DNA from: Dokdonella fugitiva | GTDB taxonomy: Bacteria; Pseudomonadota; Gammaproteobacteria; Xanthomonadales; Rhodanobacteraceae | DNA: 64,000 bases | Reading direction: 5' to 3' | Assembly (NCBI RefSeq): GCF_004342425.1 | Contig: NZ_SLWQ01000002.1 | Location: 62,001 to 126,000, forward strand | In this document: positions 30,386 to 34,198 of the stretch, in pieces | Numbering within the stretch: position 1 is the stretch's first letter | Layout: each line of letters begins with the position of its first letter | The notes under the pieces: model-generated | What the model was told of the DNA's origin: nothing | The model's database searches: none | Seen by the model: only the letters and a program-made list of their open reading frames with translations | Program-made: the position numbers and the translations under genes

Positions 30386-30697
30386 ATGCGCAGCGTCCTG
30401 TTCCTCTGCACCGGAAATTCCGCGCGCAGCATTCTCGCCGAAGCCCTGCTCGGCACGCTCGGCAAGGGACGCTTCGAGGCCTACAGCGCGGGCAGCCAGC
30501 CCGCGGGACGCGTCCAGCCGATCGCCGCGGAGCTCGCGACGGAACTCGGCTATCCGGCCGATCGCCTGCGCAGCAAGAGCTGGGACGAGTTCGCCACGCC
30601 CGGCGCACCGCCGATCGATTTCGTGATCACCGTGTGCGACAACGCGGCCGCCGGGCCTGTCCGATCTGGCCGGGCCATCCCGCGTCCATACACCTCG
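30386..30697 (+). pseudogene. arsC: Broken arsC (LMW-phosphatase-type arsenate reductase)
   Basis: The frame from ATG 30386 gives [20 protein letters not shown] with the CX5R catalytic loop Cys8-Arg14, and continues well to [14 protein letters not shown] one-base loss near 30651-30658 then shifts the frame: the native sequence [13 protein letters not shown] continues in the other frame to about 30697. The rest of the gene is absent; unrelated sequence and then a RAYT fragment follow. Whether the deletion is real cannot be checked without reads. Confidence 0.85.
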
Positions 30698-30746
30698 ATA
30701 AATCTGCCCCCTGTTCTGCTGTGTTCTTACCCCGCCGTTACTGAAT

Positions 30747-30894
30747 CTACGTCCAGCAGCAACGCGCATGGGGAATGATCGGTTCCAGCGCCTCATCGAA
30801 ACCGAACTCGGGCGGTGCGCTCGCGTCCGGCCCGCCCATCGGCCACGCCGCGATGCCGAGTCCATGCCTGAATAAGGTGCTCTGACCCCGTTAG
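30747..30894 (+). mobile_element. 3'-end fragment of a RAYT element
   Basis: 148 bases nearly identical to 32491-32639, the 3' end of the intact RAYT downstream; one base is missing (GCGCATGGGG against GCGCACTGGGG). It ends with the same 21-bp terminal repeat (AAGGTGCTCTGACCCCGTTA plus G). The rest of the transposase is missing. It lies where arsC's C-terminus should be. Confidence 0.88.
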
Positions 30895-30897
30895 TCG

Positions 30898-31217
30898 GAA
30901 GGAATGCGGTCGACCTACCTCGTCCGAACGTCACCGCGCGGACGATTCAATCGGAGAATTCCTCCGTCCCCTTTGATTCACCATTCAAAGAGGCGGCGTC
31001 CATCTCTGCCACTCGAACGGATCGGATGCGTGTCCTCGGCAGGAATGCGGTCGACCTACCTCGTCCGAACGTCACCGCGCGGGCGATTCAAACGGACAAA
31101 TTCCTCCGTCCCCTTTGATTAAACGGAACGTGACGCGTGTCCTCGGAAGGAATGCGGTCGATTGACCTACCTCGTCCGAACGTCACCGCGCGGACGATTC
31201 CTCCGTCCCCTTTGATT
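30898..31217 (+). repeat. Three direct copies of an 80-90 bp repeat
   Basis: Copies at about 30898-30978, 31031-31120 and 31137-31217 share GGAATGCGGTCGA, CCTACCTCGTCCGAACGTCA and CCGCGCG. Each ends CCTCCGTCCCCTTTGATT, but the unit before that ending varies in length; copy 2 has AAACGGACAAATT where copy 1 has CAATCGGAGAATT and copy 3 lacks it. Intervening bases differ between copies. No ORF is evident in this stretch. It directly follows the RAYT fragment. Confidence 0.85.
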
Positions 31218-31230
31218 GCCGCAATAGACT

Positions 31231-31701
31231 CTACCGTTCCGCGATGCCAAGAAAGCTCCGTGCGGCCGCATTGACCGCGCCTCGCCTCAATACGCCTTCG
31301 GCAATTTCCGCGCGCAAAGATCTATTGTCCTGTAGTCGCTCGAAAAGCGGCAGCATCAAGTCCCTTGTCATCCATGCTACCCGACGCTCCCTTTCGTCAT
31401 CAGTTAACTTATTCTCAAGATCGAGACCTTGAGAAATGTCTCCCTCTTGATTCGGGTAGGCAGCCGACAAGCGGATTCGAATCGGGCAGTTTTGCTCCTT
31501 TGGAATAGGCATGCCATCTACGGTCATTCCAGTGGGAACCCAGCAAAGATTCACGTAGAACTGCTGGCCGAAGTTCGACTTCTGCAGGTCAGCTATTTGA
31601 AGCACTTCGCCAATTGAGCGATACCAGCGAGATCCTTGCTTCATGAAACCGTGCTCGCGCAATAATCTGCCAAAGAGCTTCTGAAAATATGTCTTTTCCA
31701 T
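31231..31701 (-). CDS. DUF4304 family protein
   Basis: 156 residues. EKTYFQKLFGRLLREHGFMK, QGSRWYRSIGEVLQIADLQK and SNFGQQFYVNLCWVPTGM are the typical DUF4304 course. Function unknown. The gene is noticeably A/T-richer than the core genome (one 60-base line in it is 45% G+C by count) and has weak start context, signs of horizontal acquisition. It is flanked by RAYT material and repeats. Confidence 0.8.
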   Translation of the reverse strand: MEKTYFQKLFGRLLREHGFMKQGSRWYRSIGEVLQIADLQKSNFGQQFYVNLCWVPTGMTVDGMPIPKEQNCPIRIRLSAAYPNQEGDISQGLDLENKLTDDERERRVAWMTRDLMLPLFERLQDNRSLRAEIAEGVLRRGAVNAAARSFLGIAER

Positions 31702-31808
31702 AACTGTTATCGATCATATGTCTCGACACTACTAGTCCACGTCCCTCCGAAATGCTCTTCCAGCTCTTTACGATATTCCTCCACTTGTTTTTCTCCCGCC
31801 CGTATCGC

Positions 31809-32639
31809 CTAACGGGGTCAGAGCACCTTTCCCGCGCATCTCGGCGGAAACGGCTGACGCCATCTCACCGGCTGCAGCGTTGGCTGTGGATGCCTCGTCC
31901 GGCGATCCTCGCCGTATGGCTCGACTCCCACGACCCGATCTTGCGGGCATTCCACAGCATGTCGTCCAGCGTGGCAACAATCGGATGCCTTGCTTCTTCG
32001 ATGATGACGACCGCCGCCGATATGGAGGGATGCTGCGTGAGGCCGCTTCGCGCTACGGCTGCCGGATCCACGCCTATGTGCTGATGAGCAACCACGTGCA
32101 CCTGCTGGTTTCGCCGGAAACGGCAGCGGGTGTCGCGCGCATGATGCAAGAACTGGGGCGAGCGTATGTCTCGACCTTCAATGCGAGACACCGCCGCAGT
32201 GGCACGTTGTGGGAAGGCCGCTACAAGTCCTGCCTCGTCGACTCGGAAACCTACCTGCTTCGCTGCTATCGCTATATCGAGCTCAATCCCGTGCGGGCAG
32301 CGATGGTGGCAGCGCCGTCGGAGCATCCCTGGTCGAGCTACCATGCCAATGCCGCAGGCAGGGACGACCCGCTCGTCCATCCCCATGCCGTCTACCTGGC
32401 CCTGGGGCCGAACGTCACCGAACGCTGCGTCGCCTACCGCGCGCTCTTCAACGAAGCGATCGGCGATGAGCAGCTGGCGGAAATCCGCGCCTACGTCCAG
32501 CAGCAACGCGCACTGGGGAATGATCGGTTCCAGCGCCTCATCGAAACCGAACTCGGGCGGTGCGCTCGCGTCCGGCCCGCCCATCGGCCACGCCGCGATG
32601 CCGAGTCCATGCCTGAATAAGGTGCTCTGACCCCGTTAG
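31809..32639 (+). mobile_element. Complete RAYT element bounded by perfect 21-bp inverted repeats
   Basis: The sequence starting CTAACGGGGTCAGAGCACCT at 31809-31829 recurs exactly inverted at 32619-32639, whose inner end overlaps the stop codon of the transposase gene. The core GGGGTCAGAGCACC is the kind of REP sequence usually next to this transposase class. No flanking target duplication is needed by such enzymes and none was seen. Confidence 0.85.
31916..32620 (+). CDS. REP-associated tyrosine transposase (RAYT, IS200-like Y1)
   Basis: 234 residues. The HUH metal motif is LMSNHVHLLVSP (HVH), and the catalytic tyrosine is in CYRYIELNPVRAAM. LARPRPDLAG-like N-terminus, IPQHVVQRGNNRM and SGTLWEGRYKSCLVDSETYL are family blocks. 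It nicks and rejoins REP sequences as single strands. A TTG-initiated longer form from 31880 is possible; ATG 31916 fits the family start better. A remnant of a second copy lies at 30747-30894. Confidence 0.92.
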   Translation: MARLPRPDLAGIPQHVVQRGNNRMPCFFDDDDRRRYGGMLREAASRYGCRIHAYVLMSNHVHLLVSPETAAGVARMMQELGRAYVSTFNARHRRSGTLWEGRYKSCLVDSETYLLRCYRYIELNPVRAAMVAAPSEHPWSSYHANAAGRDDPLVHPHAVYLALGPNVTERCVAYRALFNEAIGDEQLAEIRAYVQQQRALGNDRFQRLIETELGRCARVRPAHRPRRDAESMPE

Positions 32640-32732
32640 TTGGAGCAATTCCGCCAGCTGGGTCGATGCTGCGGCGCGTGCGTACTACCTGAGCGGTCGG
32701 TTCCGGGCGCAGCGACCGCCGCAATCCCGTCG

Positions 32733-33239
32733 CTAGGTTCCGCGAATCCTTTTGGCGAGTCGCACAATCTCAAGCGACAAGACTTGTTCCGCTTTGCGCG
32801 CCAAAGCGGAAATGCAATCGACGCCTTCCCGCGTCAGCTCTCTTGGAGGGTGGTCCGCAGTCGTCTGAATACCGGTTTCGGTGAAGTACACACGAAGCCG
32901 GTGCACTGATCCAGCCGCATGCGCAATCGACAAGTGACGGATTTCTCTAAACAGATTGTGTGCTGCGAGTTCGTCCGCATCGTATTGCAGCAGATCGACG
33001 CTCAAAGGCAGCCAGCCCGCATCGGATTTGCCGAAGGGTCGGCTGTAGGCAACGAGGATCGCGGACATGAAGGCGCGACGCATTGCGTGGCGCGTAAGGA
33101 TGTCGGCTGGCGGCTCGTAGAAGTTTGGCTGCCAGAACTCGAGCCGCTCCATCGCGTTTGCATATAGCGCTACCTCGCCAAACGCGCCTCGCGCGAAATG
33201 GTACTGATCGAACGTCTTCTGGTCCCGTGCAATTGGCAT
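32733..33239 (-). CDS. Unknown protein with HEPN-like RxxxxxH motif
   Basis: 168 residues, mostly helical. The segment LFREIRHLSIAHAAGS (Arg101, His107) has the R-x5-H spacing and AH context of HEPN ribonuclease active sites. The N-terminus reads ARDQKTFDQYHFARGAFGEV, with a later MRRAFMSAILVAYSRPFG. I do not recognise a named family, so the RNase activity is a hypothesis. The ATG at 33239 lies five bases after the stop of the TIGR02391 gene, indicating a two-gene operon. Codon use is less G/C-biased than neighbours. Confidence 0.68.
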   Translation of the reverse strand: MPIARDQKTFDQYHFARGAFGEVALYANAMERLEFWQPNFYEPPADILTRHAMRRAFMSAILVAYSRPFGKSDAGWLPLSVDLLQYDADELAAHNLFREIRHLSIAHAAGSVHRLRVYFTETGIQTTADHPPRELTREGVDCISALARKAEQVLSLEIVRLAKRIRGT

Positions 33240-33243
33240 GCGC

Positions 33244-33981
33244 CTACGCACGCGGTGTTCTGGCATCGACCAAGGCGAGCAGATGCGACGCCAAGATCAA
33301 GAGCTCGGCAGCAGCCTTCGCGTCGACCTGGACGTAACGGTGGCTACCTGGATTCTTGAATAGTCCAATCGCCCCTTGGAATAGATTCATCATCGCCGTC
33401 TGCTCGCCAGCCGCTATTCCTGTGTCGCGCAAGGGGCCGCCCGTGGGGTTGAATGCATCGGCCATCAATTGAATGCCAAGCCGCGTTTCGGGCAATCCGC
33501 TTGCCTTCCGAACGGCGACCTCGACGTCACGAAAAGCGCAGAACACGGAAACGTCGTAGGCCCCGCGCAAGAAATTGTCCAAGGCCTCGCCCTGCAGTGC
33601 TGGATGCAGATTCGTCCTATCAATTTGCCGCGCTGCTAGAAGCGGCGCCGGATCTGCGGCTGCCAAGAACTGTTCGCCAACGCGAGAGAGCTTGCGCCAA
33701 CCTGGCGTGAGGAAGTCAGAAACAACGAGGATCAGCTCTCGGTCCATCCACGCCCAAGCTTCGGCCACGGCCAAATCAACCGCCCCCGCCTGCTCTTGAG
33801 GGTATCCGTCGATCTGCACGTCCTGCGGATGAAAGCGAAGCGGCGGGTCCCTTCCGCCGAAGTTGACGACGTTTGCCGCACGTTTCTCGACCAAAAGGGC
33901 ACGCAGGATCGCATGCGCCAACTGCGCATGGGTCATTGCGAGCACCTGATCGACGTTAGGAACGACTGAGTGAAGTCGCAT
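33244..33981 (-). CDS. TIGR02391 (Ymh) family protein
   Basis: 245 residues. The C-terminal half carries the family blocks: LHPALQGEALDNFLRGAYDV, SVFCAFRDVEVAVRKASGLP, LMADAFNPTGGPLRDTG, and NLFQGAIGLFKNPGSHRYVQ. The KN-x3-H around Asn210/His214 resembles a HEPN-type motif. The N-terminal half (residues 10-120) has no clear domain. The family is often found near restriction or defence genes and has no settled function. The nearest upstream feature on the strand is tRNA-Phe, 142 bases away. Confidence 0.78.
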   Translation of the reverse strand: MRLHSVVPNVDQVLAMTHAQLAHAILRALLVEKRAANVVNFGGRDPPLRFHPQDVQIDGYPQEQAGAVDLAVAEAWAWMDRELILVVSDFLTPGWRKLSRVGEQFLAAADPAPLLAARQIDRTNLHPALQGEALDNFLRGAYDVSVFCAFRDVEVAVRKASGLPETRLGIQLMADAFNPTGGPLRDTGIAAGEQTAMMNLFQGAIGLFKNPGSHRYVQVDAKAAAELLILASHLLALVDARTPRA

Positions 33982-34122
33982 GACCGCTTCGCATTCCATC
34001 AACGCACATGGGGCGATTCTGCCGCATTGCCGGAACAGCGACGGGGGTCGATGGCATTTGGCAAACAAACGGCAAACGTAATGGGCCGTGCTTGACGTTA
34101 GTTACACAAGTGCTTGATTAGA

Positions 34123-34198
34123 TGGTGGCCGGGGACGGAATCGAACCGCCGACACGGGGATTTTCAATCCCCTGCTCTACCAACTGAGCTACCCGGCC
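34123..34198 (-). tRNA. tRNA-Phe (GAA)
   Basis: 76 bases that fold as a standard cloverleaf on the minus strand. The acceptor arm GGCCGGG pairs with CCCGGCC; the anticodon stem is GGGGA/TCCCC with loop TTGAAAA (anticodon GAA). The T arm has GGTTCGATTCC, and CCA is encoded at the 3' end. No intron or variable-arm oddity is seen. Confidence 0.97.

Follow-up and report, generated by a model that had tools for sequence, protein, structure and literature searches.

We found two adjacent genes, here called A and B, that probably are HEPN-superfamily cargo of a horizontally acquired segment at tRNA-Phe, each most likely encoding a metal-independent ribonuclease toxin. This reading starts from the observed families, motifs and predicted folds of the two proteins, from their insertion at the tRNA gene, and from the absence of a conserved partnership between them. 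HEPN ribonucleases are a rich source of domains for phage defence and for toxins, and A-B is a new instance of HEPN cargo in a tRNA island. Its new parts are the unnamed HEPN-like family of B, whose strict signature of seven residues escapes current family libraries, and, as a second useful addition, a branch of Ymh proteins represented by A, in which lysine takes the place of the motif arginine. Both additions are open to bench testing.

Gene A occupies positions 33244..33981 of the window (the whole stretch of DNA analysed, 64 kb) on the minus strand and encodes a 245-aa TIGR02391/Hypoth_Ymh protein, its length being counted from the ATG that agrees with the homologues (33981 to 33244). Gene B, on the same strand at 32733..33239, encodes a HEPN-like protein of 168 aa whose family has no name. 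Four nucleotides (33240..33243) separate the stop codon of A from the start ATG of B; an alternative in-frame ATG for B at 33266 would give an overlap with A. When the coordinates were re-read from the sequence, the two minus-strand frames, the four-base gap and the 168-residue length all agreed with the initial annotation, which had also placed the pair between a RAYT element and tRNA-Phe and described it as less G/C-biased than its surroundings. Both of these observations held. A Y1/IS200-type transposase gene lies on one side and tRNA-Phe on the other, and GC is 0.60 for A and 0.58 for B, compared with 0.685 for the 64-kb window (third-position GC of 0.67 and 0.65, compared with 0.85-0.88 in two neighbours across the tRNA). 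From the 4-nt gap and the sequence, A and B are probably co-transcribed, and the gap suggests that they are perhaps translationally coupled. Promoter and terminator scans at the locus gave nothing beyond chance.

The segment that holds the two genes is a foreign insertion, acquired horizontally. By blastn, colinearity with the nearest relative (G028), whose DNA is 83-99% identical in the matching blocks near the site, ends at 34122, at the 3' end of tRNA-Phe(GAA) (34123..34198, minus strand), and resumes at 30687. The lower-GC segment in between (30688..34121, unstranded), delimited by synteny and composition and annotated with Pfam, holds A, B, a Y1/IS200-type transposase gene and a DUF4304 gene; it is missing in G028, which has neither A nor B. 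At the same tRNA-Phe site, G028 carries a RES toxin with an Xre/MbcA/ParS antitoxin (L059 11240-11800 and L098 2441-2776). In other members of the genus, a ResIII (restriction-type helicase) protein and tyrosine integrase genes (identified by eye) were found beside tRNA-Phe. The 3' end of tRNA-Phe is an insertion hotspot of the genus for toxin and defence cargo. Within the 64-kb window, no partial copy of tRNA-Phe was found as an attachment repeat. In G028, a 456-aa protein without a Pfam match adjoins the RES-Xre pair (L059 12199-13569).

The assignment of A to the TIGR02391 family in the initial annotation was borne out, as the protein exceeds the curated cut-offs of both PF09509 (E 5.4e-20, 71.9 bits, cut-off 25) and TIGR02391 (E 1.9e-14, 53.8 bits, cut-off 39.45). 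Since Ymh (PF09509) is a recognised HEPN family, which occurs solo or fused to paraMORC, AbiJ-NTD1 or AbiTii domains and also in operons with restriction-modification genes (PMC3710099), the HEPN identity of A is established. The KN-x3-H claimed near its end is present as K209-N-P-G-S-H214-R (K209-N210-x3-H214), so that the HEPN R-x4-6-H pattern has lysine at the usual arginine position, as it does across nearly the whole branch. E154-x3-R158 is invariant in the alignment and lies within a helix of the AlphaFold model (142-161), as does the E-x3-(K/R) feature of HEPN helix 2; this motif and N-P-x-x-H agree with the published HEPN description (PMC3710099). K/R-N-P-x-x-H is found in nearly all A homologues. 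Throughout the winged-helix Ymh branch, L007 alone excepted, this place reads K-N-P-x-S-H; Ymh proteins outside the branch, from the same bacterial family, carry R-N-P-x-x-H. The lysine is therefore a trait of the clade rather than damage in this copy, and it could weaken catalysis.

Homologues of A, at 31-46% identity, align over the full length including the N-terminus. The AlphaFold model (mean pLDDT 81) has a winged-helix-like helix-strand arrangement at about 10-98; after residue 132 a helical bundle follows, with the HEPN C-terminus predicted at about 132-241. A PADLOC match to Aga_HEPN (E 0.002) was confined to this C-terminal region. Foldseek of the model against the PDB gave no significant match; the weak ones included winged-helix proteins and the HEPN entries 1ufb and Csm6, these two with E above 1 only. 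A keeps the Ymh motifs N-P-x-x-H and E-x3-R, but its branch differs from the published fusions (PMC3710099) in its winged-helix-like N-terminus and in its lysine.

B itself matched no model of Pfam, NCBIfam, PADLOC or PHROGs, and those of its homologues that were tried matched none in NCBIfam. Searches turned up eighteen remote homologues, which come from Dyella, Pseudomonas, Pseudovibrio, Mesorhizobium, Agrobacterium, Hoeflea, Bradyrhizobium, Sphingobium, Aureimonas and viral contigs; the phage records searched held none. In the family alignment (n=19 with B), seven residues are invariant in 19/19: Y65, R67, G75, H94, R101, A106 and H107. The R-x5-H (Arg101/His107) noted in the initial annotation is present as R101-H102-x4-H107, and it is no chance match, because R101 and H107 are kept in every member of this divergent family. 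The residue after R101 is H, N or D in all 19, which fits the HEPN R-x4-6-H pattern with the polar residue described after the motif arginine of HEPN active sites (PMC3710099). The HEPN-type four-helix bundle looked for in the predicted structure is present in the AlphaFold model (mean pLDDT 81; helices 2-32, 44-69, 88-104 and 137-167), where the motif stands at the end of helix 3, as in HEPN proteins, with H107 in a low-confidence loop. Helix 2 has no conserved acidic residue in the 19-member alignment, such a residue being a feature of many, not all, HEPN families.

Some homologues of B gave weak matches to AbiU2 (PF18734) centred on the motif, with a best E of 0.0039 in the Aureimonas member; the best score in the family, 17.1 bits, is below the gathering score of 26.8 bits. 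The B family also resembles AbiU2 in its R-(polar)-x4-H, but B itself did not match PF18734 and is shorter, and in profile-profile comparison (hhalign) B scored no higher against AbiU2 or Ymh than reversed controls did. A PF18734 search of the host and two related genomes gave no match, the control likewise being without one, and sequence searches of solved structures gave nothing relevant. Foldseek, which the initial annotation had proposed for comparing both proteins with HEPN structures, returned no significant match for B (PDB and BFVD), nor for A in the PDB. As there is no significant named relative by fold or profile, the placing of B within HEPN depends on its motif, its topology and the weak AbiU2 matches; we regard B as probably a HEPN protein, its family being related to AbiU2 at most remotely. 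Of the earlier proposal that both proteins are HEPN-type, the part on A is established and that on B is likely.

A and B were never found together outside the host genome in 233 genomes of the same family, class and phylum samples, plasmids, viral contigs and a limited scan of GTDB contigs with two short patterns only. Among the 233 genomes, B is present in two (host counted) and PF09509 proteins of various branches in 20. The fetched flanks of some 15 B loci contain no A homologue, and more than 20 A-branch loci have no B homologue beside them; the flanks compared at genome loci were 1.5 kb, and the search was broad, not exhaustive. A conserved A-B pair was rejected, since these searches, made in both directions, gave no second co-occurrence. 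The initial annotation had suggested an undescribed two-subunit ribonuclease or antiphage system and had made its case depend on the same pair in other genomes; the searches do not support this suggestion. Because A and B were not seen side by side in any other genome searched, they are better taken as ordinary mobile defence-type cargo than as a new two-part system.

The neighbours are variable for both families. B homologues have a wide range of neighbours, many of them of nuclease or defence type (Abi_C with RNNKSLAH, NYN, AAA_21 with HNH, GmrSD with RiboL-PSP HEPN, an N6-methylase and ligD). A homologues are accompanied by, among others, integrases, a ThiF/JAB island, MqsRA and a RelA/SpoT-domain gene. 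Together with the tRNA-Phe hotspot, these neighbours support the mobile, defence-type context proposed earlier. In Pseudomonas viridiflava (L035 4046-5474), a B homologue stands downstream of an Abi_C protein with R-x6-H (RNNKSLAH), a second HEPN-HEPN tandem with another partner, and on a viral contig (L068 2535-5078) a B homologue, a GmrSD_N gene and a RiboL-PSP HEPN gene stand in a row. B-type genes therefore sometimes adjoin other HEPN genes.

In the mechanism that we favour, A would be a winged-helix and HEPN protein of the lysine-type Ymh branch and B a HEPN protein that stands alone and belongs to an unnamed mobile family, each most likely acting as a metal-independent ribonuclease toxin. 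Each would be active as a dimer whose motifs lie at the interface. Phage infection or other stress may trigger or release the toxin, cellular or phage RNA would be cut, and growth would stop; the winged helix of A could serve in DNA sensing or operon regulation. We infer ribonuclease activity and growth arrest on infection by analogy with HEPN precedents (PMC3710099), and dimerisation, trigger and co-transcription are presumed as well.

We consider it unlikely that A and B are a dedicated two-gene module for defence or toxicity, in which a heteromeric HEPN-HEPN ribonuclease would sense DNA through the winged helix of A and take its canonical arginine from B. The common strand, 4-nt spacing and similar GC would fit such a module, as would the HEPN genes next to B homologues (Abi_C in P. 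viridiflava, RiboL-PSP on L068) and a published operon that unites two HEPN families, Bxe_C0808 and AbiU2 (PMC3710099, Table 1); the loci of each family without the other, and their variable neighbours, argue against it. The Bxe_C0808 operon resembles A-B in that two different HEPN genes share one operon, one of them possibly AbiU2-like, but no recurrent A-B operon was found, and the likeness covers layout, not kinship of Bxe_C0808 to A. A dedicated A-B complex would be conceivable, but the genome comparisons do not support it. That the pair is a heteromeric antiphage ribonuclease, joining a winged-helix sensor HEPN with a lysine-type motif to an arginine-type HEPN of an undescribed family, seems improbable to us.

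We are similarly doubtful of a toxin-antitoxin pair in which B, with its intact R-x5-H, would be the toxin and A, with its lysine variant and winged helix, the repressor and antitoxin, or in which these roles would be exchanged. The two-gene layout, the RES-Xre pair at the same spot in the sister genome and the predicted winged-helix-like N-terminus of A are in line with it, but homologues of A and B each occur without the other, so that neither family depends on the other for an antitoxin. The known HEPN-MNT toxin-antitoxin systems share the two-gene layout with a HEPN component, but the A-B cassette contains no nucleotidyltransferase gene. There is very little chance, in our view, that B is a non-HEPN four-helix bundle with a convergent R-x5-H, or that A and B are both inactive RNA- or DNA-binding relics. 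That B has no significant match by fold or profile and is absent from Pfam, NCBIfam, PHROGs and PADLOC would suit this, but R101, A106 and H107 are invariant in the whole family, and the motif is placed in the AlphaFold model exactly as in HEPN domains.

The Y1_Tnp (RAYT-type) element in the insertion (31809..32639, plus strand) has perfect 21-nt terminal inverted repeats and is separate from the A-B genes. A 131-nt, 99% identical copy of its 3' end (30769-30899, matching 32514-32644) lies 1.7 kb off as a truncated duplicate. Next to this truncated element, at 30895-31217, a 64-nt sequence (GGAATGCGGTCGACCTACCTCGTCCG...) is repeated imperfectly, in three copies that have 27-nt tails ATTCCTCCGTCCCCTTTGATT. 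The DUF4304 gene (31231-31701) has a GC of 0.51, the lowest in the insertion.
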